Shown: positions 5,081 to 33,073 of the stretch, piece after piece
Numbering within the stretch: position 1 is the first letter of the stretch
Layout: the number at the start of each line of letters is the position of its first letter
Assembly (NCBI GenBank): GCA_947428835.1
Contig: CANENE010000002.1
Location: forward strand, 142,901-206,900
Source: an uncultured bacterium
Lineage (GTDB): Bacteria; Cyanobacteriota; Vampirovibrionia; Gastranaerophilales; Gastranaerophilaceae
Direction of reading: 5' to 3'
Length of the DNA stretch: 64,000 bases
Notes under the pieces: generated by a model
Seen by the model: only the letters and a program-made list of their open reading frames with translations
The model's database searches: none
What the model was told of the DNA's origin: nothing
Translations under genes and position numbers: made by a program

Positions 5081-5686
5081 CTAAAGATTTTTTTCAAGTT
5101 GTTTTCTATAGATTAAAACAAGAGCTAAAATCCCAAAATATAAACCAAATTCCGAAATTTCTTCTATGATTGTGCTATGAAGGGTTTTTTCAGAAATCAA
5201 TTGTATGGCAACCAGCCCAAATGATGCAAAAAATGTCCAAAAAGGCAGTATTGTCGTTTTTAGAATTTCAAAAGTTTCAAGATAGACTTTTTTAATAATA
5301 AACCATAAAGCACTTAGTCCCAATGCAGCACCTACTATATAATTTACCAAAAAACCGTATTTATAATGCGACCATGGGTATGTATTATAAGGGTCTCCGG
5401 GCATCAGGCAAAATATAGTTCTTCCATAGCTAAGTTCTCTTAAAAACATGAAAACCACAACAATTGCAATTGCTTTAAAGAAGTTTTTGTATTTCTTTGC
5501 TTTGGTACATAAAACAAAAGAAGCTATCAAAGGTATAAGCTGAAAATTTTCAAGCAGGGTATTTTCGTAGATTTCATTCAGGTTGAAAATTTTCACATAT
5601 GCAATTGATAAAACTATTGCTAAAACAATAAACCAGTTTTCTTTATCTAAAGAAAAACTTATATTTTTAAAATTAATTCCAGTCAT
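5081..5686 (-). CDS. Unknown multi-pass membrane protein
   Basis: A 201-aa protein with about six hydrophobic segments, around residues 17-34, 48-60, 70-82, 110-128, 143-162 and 178-192. It is therefore an inner-membrane protein. A conserved-looking soluble patch, FLRELSYGRTIF followed by MPGDPYNTYPW, lies between the third and fourth segments. I do not recognise the family. It is transcribed divergently from the FlhA-domain gene at 5745, with a 58-bp shared intergenic region, and is followed by its own terminator, so it is probably monocistronic. Confidence 0.6.
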   Translation of the reverse strand: MTGINFKNISFSLDKENWFIVLAIVLSIAYVKIFNLNEIYENTLLENFQLIPLIASFVLCTKAKKYKNFFKAIAIVVVFMFLRELSYGRTIFCLMPGDPYNTYPWSHYKYGFLVNYIVGAALGLSALWFIIKKVYLETFEILKTTILPFWTFFASFGLVAIQLISEKTLHSTIIEEISEFGLYFGILALVLIYRKQLEKNL

Positions 5687-5744: not shown

Positions 5745-7196
5745 ATGAATAAACAATTTAGGCAAGAATTTTCGATAAAACAAATACCAACTGATGATGT
5801 GGTTTTGCTTCAAAATACTCTTAATGCTATGTCTCAGCAGGATTGGGACTTGTATTCAATTTATGAGGCGGAACAAAATTCAAAAATAGTATACAACTGC
5901 ATCTTTGTAAAAGAAGTTGAAAACCGGGAAGTTGAAGATGACTTAATTGGTTTTAGAAGTGCTGTTGAAAAAATGCTTTATACAAAAGAAGAGCCGTATG
6001 AACTATGTCTTAATCTTCAAAAGAAAATCAGAGACAAAAAAGAGAAAATCGAACGTGTCAAAAAATTCCTTGAAAGTTCTAAAGACGAAGAAAGAGAATT
6101 TTTAAATGATGAAGTCAAAAAAGAAATTGATGAGTTAAACGATTTAAAGCGTGATTTGAGAGAGATTTTGGCTCCATCCAAGATGTCTGAATTTTTAGGT
6201 GAAGATAAGCTTTCAATCAGTCTTTCAAAAGAAAACTATTGCCTGTGCGACCCCAAGGAAGTTAAAAATCTTTTATCACAGATAGTAAAAGTCAGACAAG
6301 AGCTTACAAACCAATTGGGCTATATTATTCCAAAAGTTCAATTTATTGAAAATACACAGCTCGAAGAATTTGATTTTTCAATAAATGTCCATGGCGTTTC
6401 TTTGGTTAATGCAAAAGCATATCCAAACCATCTTATGTTTTTTGAAGATGAATTGAATATGACTTCGTATCCTAAAAATTCCCATAGAGTGAAAGATGCG
6501 CTTACAAAAAGAAAAATAGTTTGGATTGAAAAAGCAAATTGTGAAAACTATTGGACGCAAGGAATTGAGCCAAGTGAATATATAGCAAATTATCTTAGCT
6601 ATTTTGCAATTAAGCATGTTGAAGAAATATTTGACTATAACGATTTAAACCGACTTGTAGAATTTGTTGCAAACGAAAATTCATACCTTACAGATAGCAT
6701 AGTTGGCGATTATATAAGTATTTCAGAGCTTAAATATCTTTTGACTCAATTAATCAGAGAAAGAGTGAGCATTAAAGATATTATCTATATATTTGAAAAA
6801 CTTAATGATTTTTCAGATGATCCAAACAAAGCAGATTTGCTTGAAAAAATCAGAATTTCGCTATCAAGGCAAATTTCTCAAAATGTCGCAAATGAAAATA
6901 AAGAAATATTTGCTTATGAAATAGATGCAGAAACTATTGAACTTTTGCAAAAACAGGCAAATAATGATGAAGACAGCCACAGTATTAAAATTGATATATC
7001 CAAGTTTTCAAAGTTCAAAAAAATATTAAAAGAAACTAAGCAAGATATTATTTCAAATAATGCAATTCTTGTGGTTCCATCTGAATTCAGACAGGTTATT
7101 TTTGTGCTTGTATCTCAAATGTTTATGGATGTTGCGGTACTAAGCTATGAAGAAATCGGACTTGACTATAAGTTGAAAATTTTAGGAAAAATTTAA
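5745..7196 (+). CDS. Soluble protein with a FlhA/SctV C-terminal (FHIPEP) domain
   Basis: A 483-aa protein with three parts. Residues 1-57 look like a DUF4177-type small domain (QQDWDLYSIYEAE). Residues about 85-145 are a charged coiled coil. Residues about 170-483 match the cytosolic domain of FlhA/SctV export-gate proteins: LGYIIPKVQF, VHGVSLVNAKAYPNHLMF, VWIEKANCENYW, ISELKYLLTQLIRERVSI, LLEKIRISLSRQI and the C-terminal VLSYEEIG. In flagellar and type III secretion systems this domain forms a nonameric ring that receives chaperone-substrate complexes. The eight-helix membrane half is absent and no other export gene is nearby. Its role here is unknown; a stand-alone ring or scaffold is an inference. 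Confidence 0.78.
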   Translation: MNKQFRQEFSIKQIPTDDVVLLQNTLNAMSQQDWDLYSIYEAEQNSKIVYNCIFVKEVENREVEDDLIGFRSAVEKMLYTKEEPYELCLNLQKKIRDKKEKIERVKKFLESSKDEEREFLNDEVKKEIDELNDLKRDLREILAPSKMSEFLGEDKLSISLSKENYCLCDPKEVKNLLSQIVKVRQELTNQLGYIIPKVQFIENTQLEEFDFSINVHGVSLVNAKAYPNHLMFFEDELNMTSYPKNSHRVKDALTKRKIVWIEKANCENYWTQGIEPSEYIANYLSYFAIKHVEEIFDYNDLNRLVEFVANENSYLTDSIVGDYISISELKYLLTQLIRERVSIKDIIYIFEKLNDFSDDPNKADLLEKIRISLSRQISQNVANENKEIFAYEIDAETIELLQKQANNDEDSHSIKIDISKFSKFKKILKETKQDIISNNAILVVPSEFRQVIFVLVSQMFMDVAVLSYEEIGLDYKLKILGKI

Positions 7197-7202
7197 GCAA
7201 TA

Positions 7203-7228
7203 AAAAAGAGGCTATATAACCTCTTTTT
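7203..7228. terminator. Bidirectional terminator
   Basis: Stem AAAAAGAGG (7203-7211) with CCTCTTTTT (7220-7228) and an 8-nt loop. It serves the + gene ending at 7196 and clpP on the minus strand, whose stop codon lies within the right arm. Confidence 0.8.
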
Positions 7229-7835
7229 AGTCTTTTGTAATTATTTTATCAATCAAACCATAATCAAGCGCTTGTTTTGCTGTCATAAAGTTGTCTCTTT
7301 CGGTGTCTTTTCTTATAGTTTCAATTTTTTGACCTGTGTGCTCGGATAGTAAACTATTTAACATTGTTTTCATTCTTAAAATTTCTTTTGCTTCAATTTC
7401 AATATCAGTTGCTTGTCCTTTTGCTCCGCCCAGGGGTTGGTGAATCATTATTCTTGAATTTGGAAGCGCAAGTCTTTTGCCTTTTGTACCGCCTGAAAGA
7501 AGAAAAGCACCCATTGAAGCGGCATCGCCCAAGCAAATTGTTGAAACATCCGCTTTTATAAGTTTCATTGTATCATAAATTGCCATTCCGGCAGTTATAA
7601 CACCACCGGGGGAATTTATATAGAGCATTATGTCTTTTTCCGGATTTTCGCTGTCCAAAAGTAAAAGCTGTGCTACAATTGAATTTGCAACATCATCATC
7701 AATTTCAGAGCCTAAAAAGATAATCCTTTCTCTTAAAAGCCTTGAAAAAATATCAAAAGATCTTTCGCCCCTGCTTGATGCTTCAATTACAGTCGGGACA
7801 TAACTTAGAATTTTATATTCGTTTATTCCGTTCAT
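7227..7835 (-). CDS. clpP: ATP-dependent Clp protease proteolytic subunit
   Basis: This is the serine protease core of ClpXP/ClpAP, which degrades unfolded and tagged proteins in the cytoplasm. The full catalytic triad is present: Ser107 in GDAASMGAF, His132 in MIHQPLGG and Asp181 in ERDNFM. The 202-aa length is normal. GDAAS replaces the more usual GQAAS. The ribosome-binding site is AAGGAG, about 7 bases before the ATG at 7835. No clpX or tig lies beside it, so it is a single-gene unit in this window. Confidence 0.96.
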
Positions 7836-25493: not shown

Positions 25494-26318
25494 ATGAGTC
25501 AGATTATAGATATTGATTCGTATGGAAAAATAGCAAGATTATCAGATGAAGAGCTCACTGCTCTATGGGAAGAGTATTTCTCACACAGGGAAAATAAGGT
25601 AGTTCGTGATAAAATAATTGTTCAATATATTTATCTTGCAAAATATGTTGTAGGAAGAATTAAGATGACCCTGCCCCCTGCTTTTTCTTTTGAAGATATT
25701 GTAGCTTTTGGGCTTGAAGGTTTGATAGATGCAGTTGAGAAATATTACCCAAATAAAGGCGCAAAATTTGAATCTTATGCCTTGATGAGAATAAGAGGTG
25801 CAATTATAGATAAAATCCGCCTTTCAGATTGGCTTCCAAGAACATTGAGAAAAAAAGTCAAACAAGTTAAAGCTGCAAGTGAAAAATTAAAACAAGAAAC
25901 AGGAAAAACCCCGACTGCAAAAGAGCTTTCAAAAGTTCTAGGAATGAGTGAAGAAAAAGTTAATGAAATTTTAACGTCTGATATGACCTTTAATTCTATC
26001 TATGAAAAAAAAGGTGTTGGAGATGATACTGTAGAAATAATTGATACACTTGAAGATGAAAGTTCTCATCGTCCTGATGAAGAAGCCGAAAGAAAAGACG
26101 TTAAACACGAGCTTCAAACCGCACTTAAAAAACTTCCTGATAGAGAAAGAGTGCTTTTAGTTCTTTATTATCATAAAAATATGACACTAAAAGAAATCGG
26201 CGATGCTATAAATATCTCTGAATCTCGTGTTTGTCAGCTTCATGCACAGGCAATTATGAAATTAAGAAACATATTGTCTTCTAAAAGAAGCGAAAGATTA
26301 ACTAAGGCGATTATTTAA
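25494..26318 (+). CDS. RNA polymerase sigma factor, FliA/WhiG family
   Basis: A 274-aa sigma-70 family factor. Region 2 is seen as FSFEDIVAFGLEGLIDAVEKYYPNKG and the RIRGAIIDKIR segment, region 3 as GKTPTAKELSKVLGMSEEKV, and region 4 as KLPDRERVLLVLYYHKNMTLKEIGDAINISESRV (quoted in pieces: LKEIGDAINISESRVCQLHA). FliA/WhiG factors direct motility or developmental genes. There are no flagellar genes here except the FlhA-domain protein at 5745, and no anti-sigma factor (FlgM) beside it, so its regulon cannot be told from the window. Confidence 0.88.
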   Translation: MSQIIDIDSYGKIARLSDEELTALWEEYFSHRENKVVRDKIIVQYIYLAKYVVGRIKMTLPPAFSFEDIVAFGLEGLIDAVEKYYPNKGAKFESYALMRIRGAIIDKIRLSDWLPRTLRKKVKQVKAASEKLKQETGKTPTAKELSKVLGMSEEKVNEILTSDMTFNSIYEKKGVGDDTVEIIDTLEDESSHRPDEEAERKDVKHELQTALKKLPDRERVLLVLYYHKNMTLKEIGDAINISESRVCQLHAQAIMKLRNILSSKRSERLTKAII

Positions 26319-28054: not shown

Positions 28055-31000
28055 ATGAAAAAAGTTATTGCGTTTGACTTGGGTAAGGCAAGTATCGGTT
28101 ATTGCATAAGAGAAGGTCTTGATATAAAAGAAGCAGGTTCAATTATTATTGATAAAGACCATGGCGAAATTACAAGTAACAGAACAAGAAGGTGTGCTAA
28201 AAAAGTACTAAATGCCCACAAAGAGCGCGAAAATTTTTTTAATAAAATTTGGGAAGAGTGTGGTTTGCCGGTATTAAGTAAAGAAGATTTGTTATTTACT
28301 AAAGAGTTTGCAAATAAGAATGATAACACTATATATAATTCATGTTTATTAAGAATTGCCCTGCTGCAAAATGTACAGTTGGAAACCTGGCAAATTTATA
28401 AAGCTTTACATTCTGCTATTCAAAGAAGGGGATATGATGCAAATCTTCCTTGGGCAAATGCTAATTCTAAAAATTCTGATGATGAAGAAAATGAAAAACT
28501 AACTTTAAAATATACGCAAGAAAATGATAAAGAACTTATAATATCTGATGAATATAAATATCCTTGTTATTACGACGCAACAAGGCTTGGTTTATGGAAT
28601 GAAAATTTACCAAATACTTTTTCAAAAAACATATCTGTAAAAAATTCAAACAAAGTAAGGACAAGCGGCTTGGTTGCTCCAAGAAATCTTGCTGAAAAAG
28701 AATTAAGAAAATTGTGGGAAAATGCGCAAAAACAGCTGTCGAGGCTTAATAAAATTCCGGCAGAATATTTTTTATATGGTGAATATTGCATGGCTTATGG
28801 ATCTTACCTAAAGCCGGAATTTAAAAAATATCGCGGGACATCTTATGATTGGCAAGGGGTTTTGTGCCAAAAAATACCAAGATTTGATAACAGGGCAAAT
28901 TCAAAATGCAAACTGCTTCCTAAACGTAACGTATCTAAAGCGGCAACTATAGAAAATATTACTTTTACTTTGTTGATGAAATTAAAAAACTTAAGATTCA
29001 ATACAGTGGACACTCTGTTTGATGGAGTTGCAAGAAGGCTAAGCCCTCAAGAAATTAAAGAGATTATTGAAACAAAAAAGACAAAAGATAGTTGGGAAGA
29101 AAAACTCTTATCGGTTAAAAGTGGCAAGAATCCGACTTTTACTATAACAAAAGGTGATATAGAAGCTGTTATCGGCAAGAAAACTATATTAGATAAATTA
29201 GAGCCATTGAAAGCAAATATTTCCGGTCGTTCAAGTTTTTGCAGACGTGCTTGTTCAATTATGAATAAAATTATTCTTGAAGGAGAATTGTATCCATCTG
29301 ATATGGATGTGTCGGAATTTGTTGATAAGCCTAATGTCCCAAACGGTATTACGGAAGAAGAAATCAGGCAAATGCTATCTAAGATTGGCGATTGGAATAA
29401 TTTATTTATTCCTGATAACAGAAATGAATTAAAACAAACAGATTCTGATATTAGGGAACAAACGGATATTTTAATTGCAAATATAACTAATCCCATAGTA
29501 AGAAACAGATTGCAAATACTTAGAGATTTATTGCTTGATATTAAACAAAAAGAGGGGTTTAACAATCCTGATGAAGTAGTATTTGAATTTGTGCGCGATG
29601 GGGCAGACAGCTCATTATTACCCGGCAAAAAAGCATCAGACTATGAAAAGTATATCAAAGCACAAGAAAAATATAATGAACAATTGGTCAAAGAATTAAA
29701 AGATGTTGATGCTTATTCTTCTATTAATTTCGAAAAATTTAAATTACTAAAATCTCAGGATATGAAATGTATTTATTCGGGAAAACCTATAGGAATAAGC
29801 GATTTAACGCAATGCGAAATTGATCATATATATCCTCGCGCAAAAGGAGGCAATGATGCTCTTTACAATAAAGTATTGTGTTATGCGATTGAAAATCAAA
29901 ATAAAGCCGGCCGCACTCCCTATGAATGGATGCAAAGTGACAAAGATAGATGGCAGGAGTATTTTCAACGAATGTCTAATATAAAAACAAAATTAGGCAA
30001 AAAGAAATTTGAACTTTTGACAAAAAAACCAAAAGATTGCGAAGAACTAATTGAAAGTTATAACGGTCTTGCAGAGACTGCGCAAATTGCAAAAGTTGCA
30101 CAAGAATTGACCGTGATAATATTCGGATGGGGCCTGCAAACAAAAGGCGATAAGCGTCACATTTTTGTAAATAATGGAAGCTCTACTGCTGCAATAAGGC
30201 GCAGATATGGCCTCAATAAAATTCTTGGTGATGACGTAAAAAAGAATAGAAGCAATGATAAGCATCATGCCTTGGATGCTATTTGTGTAAGTTTTTCAAG
30301 AGATTTTAAATATAATAAAGAGATGAATGCTGATGTCATTGAAGGCTTTACATACGATATAGTTAAAAAAGCAATTGATGCAATAATTCCATATCCTTAT
30401 GCAAATAAAAAACCGTTTAAAGGTAACATTAGACCCCTTGAGACAATATACGGATATAGAAAGGTTGATGATAAAGACTGTATTACATCAAAAGTTCCAA
30501 TTACTTTAATAAAACAAAAAGAAACCAATATAAAAAATATTATTGATGAAGTGATTAAAAATGATTTGTTAGATAAATTAGAACTCAATCTTTCAGCAAA
30601 AGAATGGGAAGAAATGCTAAAAAATTATGTTCATCCCAAAAAACAAACTAAAGTCAAAAGAGTTTTAACAATTGTTTCTTGCGGCGCTTTGGAAAAAGAT
30701 ACCAACGGACGAGCTCGTATAGGAGAGTTTGCCGATTTTGGTACAAAAGGTGTTAAAAATCAATTCAAACATTCAAAAGGGCATAAGGGTCAAATTCTTT
30801 ATTACAATGAAAAAGGCGCAATTAAGGTTATGCCTGTTTATGCAAATATCAAAACGCAAGATGTTAAAAACAAGCTGCTTGAAATGAATTGCAAGCTTTA
30901 TAATAAAGGTCAAATGTTTTATTCGGGCTGCTTGGTTGAAGTACCTGTGGAATTTAAAGCAGGCGCTAATACTTATCCTGCAGGAATATATAAACTAAGA

Positions 31001-31108
31001 ACTATAATGTTTAATGGCGCAATTAAGCTTGAAAACAATAGCGGTATAGAAATAGTAACAAGTGCCGTTAATCTCGCTAACGCTAATTTTAAGAAATTTT
31101 CAAATTAA
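28055..31108 (+). CDS. cas9: Cas9 endonuclease, type II-C
   Basis: An RNA-guided DNA endonuclease of 1017 aa, the compact II-C size. All nuclease residues are visible: RuvC-I Asp8 in IAFDLGKASIGY, RuvC-II Glu511 in VVFEFVR, HNH Asp590-His591 in EIDHIYPRAKGG with Asn in ENQNKAG, and RuvC-III His738/Asp741 in HHALDA. The arginine-rich bridge helix (RTRRCAKKVLNAHKER) begins near residue 49. HNH numbering is close to Neisseria Cas9 (His588). AAAGGAG lies before the ATG, and a TATAAT box at 28025. It leads a cas9-cas1-cas2 operon; no csn2 or cas4 is present. The gene appears intact. Confidence 0.96.
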   Translation: MKKVIAFDLGKASIGYCIREGLDIKEAGSIIIDKDHGEITSNRTRRCAKKVLNAHKERENFFNKIWEECGLPVLSKEDLLFTKEFANKNDNTIYNSCLLRIALLQNVQLETWQIYKALHSAIQRRGYDANLPWANANSKNSDDEENEKLTLKYTQENDKELIISDEYKYPCYYDATRLGLWNENLPNTFSKNISVKNSNKVRTSGLVAPRNLAEKELRKLWENAQKQLSRLNKIPAEYFLYGEYCMAYGSYLKPEFKKYRGTSYDWQGVLCQKIPRFDNRANSKCKLLPKRNVSKAATIENITFTLLMKLKNLRFNTVDTLFDGVARRLSPQEIKEIIETKKTKDSWEEKLLSVKSGKNPTFTITKGDIEAVIGKKTILDKLEPLKANISGRSSFCRRACSIMNKIILEGELYPSDMDVSEFVDKPNVPNGITEEEIRQMLSKIGDWNNLFIPDNRNELKQTDSDIREQTDILIANITNPIVRNRLQILRDLLLDIKQKEGFNNPDEVVFEFVRDGADSSLLPGKKASDYEKYIKAQEKYNEQLVKELKDVDAYSSINFEKFKLLKSQDMKCIYSGKPIGISDLTQCEIDHIYPRAKGGNDALYNKVLCYAIENQNKAGRTPYEWMQSDKDRWQEYFQRMSNIKTKLGKKKFELLTKKPKDCEELIESYNGLAETAQIAKVAQELTVIIFGWGLQTKGDKRHIFVNNGSSTAAIRRRYGLNKILGDDVKKNRSNDKHHALDAICVSFSRDFKYNKEMNADVIEGFTYDIVKKAIDAIIPYPYANKKPFKGNIRPLETIYGYRKVDDKDCITSKVPITLIKQKETNIKNIIDEVIKNDLLDKLELNLSAKEWEEMLKNYVHPKKQTKVKRVLTIVSCGALEKDTNGRARIGEFADFGTKGVKNQFKHSKGHKGQILYYNEKGAIKVMPVYANIKTQDVKNKLLEMNCKLYNKGQMFYSGCLVEVPVEFKAGANTYPAGIYKLRTIMFNGAIKLENNSGIEIVTSAVNLANANFKKFSN

Positions 31109-31130: not shown

Positions 31131-31168
31131 TTAAATGTAATATATGAGCTATCATATATTACATTTAA
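31131..31168. promoter_or_regulatory. Perfect 17-bp inverted repeat covering the cas1 start
   Basis: Left arm 31131-31147 and right arm 31152-31168 are perfect complements with a 4-nt loop (GCTA). The cas1 ATG (31144-31146) lies inside the left arm. In mRNA it would form a stable hairpin hiding the start codon; in DNA it would make a 38-bp dyad. No Shine-Dalgarno sequence precedes cas1, so translation may depend on ribosomes or proteins opening this structure. Confidence 0.7.
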
Positions 31169-32067
31169 CTATTCCAAATATTTCATTGTATACCGATAAA
31201 GGTTTTTTATTTTGCAAATATGATGATGAAAGCGCAAATAAAATACCTTTAGATGATTTAAGAGCGGTTATAGTTGCAACACATCAAGTTTCTTTTACAA
31301 ATACCTGTCTTGCAAAATTATTGGAAAATGATGTTATAGTTTTGCACTGTGATAATCATTATAAGCCTGTTGGTTGGTCTGCGGCTTTAGATAGGGTAGT
31401 TAGAGTGAAGGCATTTTTAAATCAAATATGCCAAGATAAAAAATTTGAAAATGAGCTGTGGAAAATAATTTTGAAGGCAAAAGTAAATAACCAATCACAA
31501 AATTTGAAGTTGCTTGGCTGTGATAATGCCAATATAGAAAGACTCATAAATAAACCCCTGCTAAGCGAAGCAAATATTGCAAAACAATATTGGAAACTAT
31601 ATTTTGAAGCACTTGGTGTTAAAACAAAAAGAGAACATAAAGATGCTAAAAACTTTGAAAACGCCTGTTTAAATTACGGCTATGCTGTAATAGCAGCTTT
31701 AATTTATCGCTCATCTTTGGTACATGGGCTTTGTCCGAATCTTGGAATTCATCATAAACAAAATTATAGGAGTATTCCTCTTATTTATGATTTGATGGAG
31801 CCATTTAGGCCATTTATAGATTATTATTTATACAAATTTAAAATGGAAGATGGTGAAAAAAATCACAAGAATTGGTGCAAATATTTATCTTGCTGTTTGC
31901 AAAATTGCAGATTAAAATACAAGGATTTTAATTATAAATTGATTGATTATATCGATTATTATATTGAGGCAATAACAAGAGCTTATATAGATTTTGATGT
32001 TAAGGAGATAGTTGTTCCTGATTTGAATGAGATGATTTTATTGATGCAAAAGAAAGATAATTTATGA
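31144..32067 (+). CDS. cas1: Cas1 integrase, type II
   Basis: The catalytic subunit of the Cas1-Cas2 spacer integrase, 307 aa. The type II subgroup pattern is clear: an N-terminal beta domain (LRAVIVATHQVSFTN, LLENDVIVLHCD), and catalytic helices with Glu in NFENACLNYGYAV, His in PNLGIHHK and the acidic DLMEPFRP segment. It starts inside a 17-bp inverted repeat and has no ribosome-binding site. It overlaps cas2 by 4 bp (ATGA), so cas2 is translationally coupled to it. Confidence 0.95.
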   Translation: MSYHILHLTIPNISLYTDKGFLFCKYDDESANKIPLDDLRAVIVATHQVSFTNTCLAKLLENDVIVLHCDNHYKPVGWSAALDRVVRVKAFLNQICQDKKFENELWKIILKAKVNNQSQNLKLLGCDNANIERLINKPLLSEANIAKQYWKLYFEALGVKTKREHKDAKNFENACLNYGYAVIAALIYRSSLVHGLCPNLGIHHKQNYRSIPLIYDLMEPFRPFIDYYLYKFKMEDGEKNHKNWCKYLSCCLQNCRLKYKDFNYKLIDYIDYYIEAITRAYIDFDVKEIVVPDLNEMILLMQKKDNL

Positions 32068-32543: not shown

Positions 32544-32581
32544 CATTTATTATATAATATTTATTCAGATTTGTATATCCT

Positions 32582-33073
32582 ATTATAATATATTTTAAAT
32601 TATTAGTAAATCAAAACGAGGAGAACCTCCAGTACCTTGAGTTGTTATTATAATATATTTTAAATTATTAGTAAATCAAAACGCACTCCAGTCTGTTGCA
32701 AGCCCTATTCCATTATAATATATTTTAAATTATTAGTAAATCAAAACCACGGTACTTTATACTCCTCCCCGTCTATATTATAATATATTTTAAATTATTA
32801 GTAAATCAAAACATTATCACTATACATAATGTTTCCAGTCTTATTATAATATATTTTAAATTATTAGTAAATCAAAACATTGGCGCGCTTTTTGCTTATT
32901 TATTCATATTATAATATATTTTAAATTATTAGTAAATCAAAACATACAGTATCTTTGTAATTGCGTAAAACTATTATAATATATTTTAAATTATTAGTAA
33001 ATCAAAACATTGGGCTTGATTGAATGTTATCCATTATATTATAATATATTTTAAATTATTAGTAAATCAAATC
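32582..33073 (-). CRISPR. Type II-C CRISPR array, 8 repeats and 7 spacers
   Basis: Eight 36-bp repeats start at 32582, 32647, 32712, 32777, 32843, 32908, 32973 and 33038. Spacers are 29 nt, except the fourth, 30 nt. The first seven repeats are identical; the last differs at position 35 (T for A on +). In crRNA sense (minus strand) the repeat begins GTTTTGATTTACT and ends TATATTATAAT. The minus strand is chosen because the tracrRNA anti-repeat fits that orientation and GTTTT is the usual type II start. Repeats contain a promoter (TTTACT-N17-TATAAT), so each spacer may be transcribed separately. Confidence 0.97.

Follow-up and report, generated by a model that had tools for sequence, protein, structure and literature searches.

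The gene at positions 5745 to 7196 of the window (the whole stretch of 64,000 nucleotides analyzed here, from a gut bacterium of the order Gastranaerophilales, related to cyanobacteria) encodes, as sequence matches and the predicted fold confirm, an FlhA/SctV ring domain without a membrane channel. Nearly all relatives in the order have this ring protein along with a complete second type III secretion system (T3SS), and it is therefore probably a new soluble component of the T3SS. The parts of the gene, with the basis for each, are the following.

5745..7196, plus strand: whole gene of the soluble FlhA-C ring-domain protein ("class 3"), 483 aa (Pfam, NCBIfam, PDB, family alignment, distribution)
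5757..5918, plus strand: N-terminal DUF4177-like domain, beta-alpha-beta-beta, aa 5-58 (model; DUF4177 in 16/26 members; conservation)
5919..5993, plus strand: linker, aa 59-83, modelled as largely disordered (pLDDT<50 at 60-82)
5994..6167, plus strand: helical hairpin, aa 84-141 (84-111/114-141), in place of the membrane half and the first part of the FlhA linker (model)
6168..6203, plus strand: FlhA-linker-like anchor, aa 142-153 (P144, M147), common with second-system FlhA (alignment)
6204..6416, plus strand: first part of FlhA-C D1, aa 154-224, boundaries approximate (structure match, alignment, conservation)
6417..6560, plus strand: FlhA-C D2, aa 225-272, with T254 at the F459 position, boundaries approximate (alignment)
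6561..6893, plus strand: second part of FlhA-C D1 and D3, aa 273-383, with N282 at the T490 position, boundaries approximate (structure match, alignment, conservation)
6894..7193, plus strand: FlhA-C D4, aa 384-483, the least conserved part of the family, boundaries approximate (structure match, conservation)

The gene is an intact open reading frame with an ATG start. Pfam FHIPEP matched its product with an E value of 9.8e-51, residues 127-472 being aligned to positions 321-653 of the 657 in the profile, and since the match begins at position 321, only the cytosolic half is present. NCBIfam FlhA also matched (E 1.6e-48, 165.6 bits; the equivalog cut-off is 772), and a PDB sequence search gave FlhA/SctV cytosolic domains as the best solved relatives (B. 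subtilis FlhA-C, 8e-25). In an AlphaFold2 single-chain model based on an alignment of 26 family members (pLDDT 80.4, pTM 0.64), residues 150-483 form a complete FlhA-C, of which 330 residues aligned with a chain of the V. parahaemolyticus FlhA-C nonamer (7amy_A; Z 29.5, rmsd 3.7). All four cytosolic subdomains of FHIPEP, D1-D4, were recognized by Pfam, PDB sequence matches and the model, and the multi-helix N-terminal membrane domain is absent from both the profile match and the model; a hydropathy window of at least 1.6 occurs in 6/26 members. The first-pass annotation had proposed a ring domain whose membrane half was missing and is borne out on both points, its figure of 310 residues being slightly short of the ~330-357 found here. 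The N-terminus was modelled as strand-helix-strand-strand (aa 6-58), and Pfam DUF4177 (PF13783) matched 16 of the 26 members at E<=0.1, weakly (best 3.2e-4) and with the window protein not among the 16. In the model, this DUF4177-like domain, a disordered linker and a helical hairpin take the place of the membrane half. Conservation within the family is highest in the DUF4177-like domain, with a mean top-residue frequency of 0.63, compared with 0.60 for D1b/D3 and 0.42 for D4.

The only other FHIPEP match in this genome (G000) is a complete FlhA, in an open frame of 695 aa on contig C8, so the window gene is not one half of a split gene. Contig C8 also carries SLT, FliF, a 317-aa protein and FliH; C5 carries a protein with two FliMN_C (SpoA) matches, FliO, FliP, FliQ and FliR; FlhB lies on C7 and FliI on C15. 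Rod genes were located at ~210.2-212.5 kb of C2, in an operon that starts ~3.3 kb past the right end of the window: two short FlgG/FlgF-like and two FlgB/FlgC-like genes, two of the four being matched by profile and the others named by us. Homologues of SctV, SctU, SctR, SctS, SctT, SctN, SctJ, SctL and SctQ were all found, a search for flagellin gave none in this genome, and one secretin was seen, on C10 at a distance from the T3SS genes, which may be a component of type IV pili. By gene content, G000 encodes a complete second T3SS with FlhA2, FlhB, FliPQR, FliF, FliI, FliH, a C-ring protein with two SpoA domains and a proximal rod. Detachment from export, at which the first-pass annotation had hinted, is not supported in view of these genes, which make up a complete T3SS with no flagellin.

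Two components of the second T3SS have features of their own. Its FliQ (L079:9542-10036) is 164 aa long and extends ~90 residues past the FliQ domain. An all-helical protein of 317-319 aa is encoded between FliF and FliH (C8 of G000, L033:13378-14331 and relatives); it matched no Pfam family and had no convincing PDB match, the best Foldseek hit (E 0.11) being a designed repeat protein. A first reading of this protein as FliG-like was dropped because it is all helical and has no convincing PDB match.

The second T3SS was surveyed in 58 genomes, 57 of the order (that of the window included) and one from another order of the taxonomic class, where FHIPEP and FliP each fell into two score classes. 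The higher class (FlhA ~860-890 bits, FliP 261-277) is missing from G000 and the other flagellin-less genomes of the order; the lower class (full-length FlhA ~668-731 bits, FliP 219-244) occurs in nearly all 58. Flagellin matches were found in 50 of the 58 genomes and in none of G000, G028, G029, G030, G033, G034, G047 and G057. Compared with the lower-class FlhA of G045, other lower-class copies show 70-81% identity within the order (not counting G040, which is near-identical) and 64-68% elsewhere in the class, in its other orders, as against 35-39% for higher-class FlhA. Judged by these identities, the second system dates far back and is strongly conserved, not in decay. In Di Rienzi et al. 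2013 (PMC3787301), the lack of filament and L/P rings in MEL.A1 is presented as ongoing reduction, and Soo et al. 2014 (PMC4040986) state that such gene sets cannot encode a functional flagellum. The 2013 paper (PMC3787301) also lists 13 flagellum-related clusters, with one gene from each of four genomes including MEL.A1, and two of these clusters are flhA; we infer that one of the two is the ring protein described here. Our data suggest that the "incomplete flagella" of these gut bacteria (PMC3787301, PMC4040986) represent a conserved second T3SS and not decay. If so, one has to ask which substrates the bacteria, all uncultured, send out through it.

A profile of the 26 members gave matches in 328 of 382 genomes of the taxonomic class, 286 of them being genomes of the order (a number counted by eye as the 328 less 42 marked "same class"). 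The listing behind these counts omitted 34 genomes without a match. With class 3 and full-length FlhA told apart by eye (E<1e-130 vs >1e-87) and frame lengths taken from part of the matches, 283 of the 286 order genomes with any match scored like the true channel-less ring protein. Outside the order but within the class, no match was better than 1e-81; in twelve such genomes that were inspected, the strong matches were full-length FlhA of 702-758 aa, and the rest were fragments, mostly near contig ends, or a 289-aa protein. Nothing further was found in 386 genomes of the phylum, and no relative among 33 pattern matches in viral contigs. Near relatives in named records were mostly from Candidatus Gastranaerophilales (80 loci kept of 375 confirmed). 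The ring protein is also present in genomes of the order that have no flagellin, and by these sequence counts it follows the second T3SS, itself nearly universal in the order. FlhA2 was present without the ring protein in three genomes (G029, G030, G334), and the ring protein without any full-length FHIPEP in three others (G242, G346, G329); by a rough estimate, these mismatches are no more than assembly gaps would give at 90-98% completeness, and real independence of the two is possible. That the gene is a functionless degenerating duplicate or a split flhA would account for the presence of the C-terminal half only, yet it is very improbable: the frame is intact, the 26 aligned members share one novel N-terminus and 42 invariant columns, the same fusion recurs in the 283 genomes, as the first-pass annotation proposed to look for in relatives, and a complete FlhA is encoded elsewhere in the genome. 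We consider a split or decaying flhA refuted by this conservation and by the complete second FlhA.

In a tree of FlhA-C sequences, the ring protein and second-system FlhA were separated from flagellar FlhA and the E. coli protein with support of 92.7/99, and the ring clade received 100/100; the tree held 38 class 3 sequences, some of them probably one gene represented twice with different ends. In an AU test with 16 of the 38, from which the long branches g31, L114, L120 and L123 were omitted, placement of the ring protein with flagellar FlhA gave p-AU values of 0.001 and 0.005. An origin from flagellar FlhA was discarded on the basis of this test (p<=0.005). A sister position to all second-system FlhA and one to those of the order only were not distinguished (p-AU 0.49 and 0.54). 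Phylogenetic placement thus assigns the ring protein to the FlhA2 lineage by descent.

Residues were compared, in E. coli numbering, among flagellar FlhA (class 1, n=12), second-system FlhA (class 2, n=21) and the ring protein (class 3, n=38). In Salmonella FlhA, according to PMC8166844, the chaperone dimple is made up of D456, F459 and T490, and residues 351, 354 and 356 of the linker bind the adjacent subunit at its D1 and D3. At position 459, all 12/12 class 1 sequences have F and all 21/21 class 2 sequences Y or F; in class 3 the residue is T (23), S (8), N (4) or L (2), with no aromatic among the 37 of 38 listed. Position 490 is T in 12/12 class 1 and T15/A4/S2 in class 2, and among the residues listed for class 3 it is R12/N8/S5/K5 (30/38). 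D456 is kept in 37/38 class 3 sequences, and the window protein aligns with E. coli FlhA free of gaps around 459 and 490. P351 is found in 21/21 class 2 and 38/38 class 3 sequences and M354 in 21/21 and 35/38, where class 1 has R/K and V. The equivalents of R391, I545 and E676 are conserved in the ring protein, and Ser occupies the G368 position in 36/38 of its sequences. This comparison indicates that the fold and the subunit-contact motif were retained and the chaperone docking site was lost; most likely, then, the ring protein no longer docks chaperones. The earlier suggestion of a repurposed ring agrees with the lost docking residues, but a cut-off from export finds no support, given the complete T3SS elsewhere in the genome and its order-wide co-distribution.

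In FlhA/SctV, it is D1 and D3 that build the ring (in part from PMC8166844). A survey of 24 genomes, with the partial contig-edge matches of G060 and G089 set aside, revealed further detached forms. Four genera (g34, g38, g39, g48) carry 211-249-aa proteins with the D1 and D3 parts only, without D2 and D4, and two of these proteins have one N-terminal membrane segment:

L112:5037-5684, L112:6804-7520, L113:3001-3750, L115:5482-6120: small D1+D3-only FlhA-C proteins
L116:5709-6344, L117:5407-6069, L118:848-1489, L119:4851-5501: small D1+D3-only FlhA-C proteins

Proteins of 592-593 aa in genus g31 combine three elements: the N-terminal part of the 317-319-aa T3SS protein described above (E 1e-22, 4e-18), membrane segments at ~203-263 and an FlhA-C that lacks D2. 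G086, which belongs to another order of the class, encodes a 289-aa FlhA-C fragment (L123:6998-7867) directly downstream of the second flhA. The small forms bear on a regulatory instead of a structural role, in which the linker anchor or the D1/D3 surface, inserted in the FlhA2 ring, would compete with FlhA2 or FliJ and stop or switch export. Such D1+D3-only relatives in other genera are in its favour, as are the kept linker anchor of FlhA2 and the lost chaperone dimple, which are expected for a decoy, and, according to PMC8166844, ring stability and export switching in Salmonella are under linker control. However, absence from 3 of 286 genomes is rarer than one would expect for a regulator that can be switched, and a simple decoy does not explain an N-terminal domain and hairpin about as conserved as the ring part. 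We regard a regulator as fairly unlikely.

The absence of other export genes nearby, remarked on in the first-pass annotation, holds for the window: among 335 stop-to-stop segments searched with 14 custom T3SS profiles (those of FliJ and FliK built from two near-identical sequences and insensitive), the ring gene was the sole match, and Pfam scans of 39 window proteins revealed no further export family. When T3SS profiles were applied to 30 ring loci (10 including the window, and 20 more), T3SS genes adjoined only in the closely related G040 and G045, where the ring gene heads a run followed by FliJ, FliK and FlgE. A larger locus set comprised 114 ORFs, one of which (L004) is a cut-off second-system FlhA, so that the true number is at most 113. 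A conserved operon partner was rejected, no neighbour being common to most loci and no further T3SS gene recurring beside these ORFs. Genes were called by a longest-ORF script, which may miss small ones, and neighbours were compared by clustering, so the numbers that follow are cluster sizes and not strict locus counts: 22 for a 178-180-aa protein of no known family encoded directly upstream on the same strand (L199:2399-2941 and similar), 11 for a PSP1 protein, and those given below for the two genes that flank the ring gene in the window.

5081..5686, minus strand: 201-aa hydrophobic protein without Pfam match, divergent, cluster of 22 members, probably only a neighbour (ORF list, Pfam, clustering)
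7227..7835, minus strand: ClpP protease, convergent neighbour, cluster of 18, not considered a component of the T3SS (Clp protease, 6.2e-88)

Elsewhere in the window we noted a CRISPR locus with a 1017-aa HNH/RuvC_III (Cas9-like) protein, Cas1 and an AT-rich repeat array of 8 copies at 65-66-nt spacing (28055-31108, 31144-32067 and 32560-33071, respectively), a Sigma-70-family factor with regions 2, 3 and 4 (25494-26318) in this genome without flagellin, and a 575-aa protein that in part matched carbohydrate phosphorylase (1108-2835).

Mostly unrelated and changing neighbours, the lost dimple and the three genomes that have the ring protein with no detected full-length FHIPEP would suit a ring scaffold that has abandoned export and now does unrelated work in the cytosol, with the DUF4177-like domain as its readout. 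We consider this unlikely, as the protein is confined to an order where the second T3SS is nearly universal and stands beside FliJ, FliK and FlgE in G040/G045, and as g31 has FlhA-C joined in one protein to a further component of this T3SS.

The reading of the ring protein as a cytosolic accessory ring, or a mixed-ring subunit, of the second T3SS, serving as a gate cap, spacer or selector without chaperone docking, has in our opinion about an even chance of being correct. It draws on the fold, the FlhA2 descent, the distribution, the complete second T3SS, the G040/G045 run, the kept linker anchor, the lost dimple and the g31 fusion, and is weakened by the changing neighbours, the six mismatched genomes and the poorly conserved D4. 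Ring formation and function are what we infer from these data. The protein would assemble through D1/D3 into a soluble ring, or would mix into or stack beneath the FlhA2 ring, with the DUF4177-like domain and the hairpin as a tether. At the export gate it would cap, space or select, chaperone-substrate complexes not being docked by the ring protein itself, and it might hold FliJ/FliI or limit the substrates that enter. If a ring does form, it would offer a natural way to uncouple the assembly of the type III export ring from chaperone docking and from the channel. More broadly, and as a tentative and somewhat doubtful proposal, the Gastranaerophilales export-gate ring may be a detachable module, the order-wide soluble ring, the D1+D3 mini forms and the T3SS fusions building a second sorting ring in the cytosol, in the service of a rod-only T3SS formerly taken as a decaying flagellum.

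Among open PMC papers, we found neither a channel-less FlhA/SctV relative nor, in those on DUF4177, a fusion of this domain with FlhA-C. The domain itself is known; we found no description in the same sources of an order-wide form that lacks the channel and is fused to DUF4177, or of its link to a T3SS without a filament. The likeness to DUF4177 (PF13783) lies in the strand-helix-strand-strand order and in the weak matches. With the FlhA/SctV cytosolic domain, the ring protein shares D1-D4 in order, with Z values of 22-29.5 against FlhA, SctV, CdsV, MxiA, InvA, EscV and SsaV; it differs in having the DUF4177-like domain and hairpin instead of the membrane domain and in the replacement of F459 and T490. 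Its closest relative, by tree and AU test, is the second-system FlhA (C8 of G000, L001), with which it has the P351/M354 anchor in common; that FlhA differs by its membrane channel, by having an aromatic residue at position 459 and by much stronger conservation.
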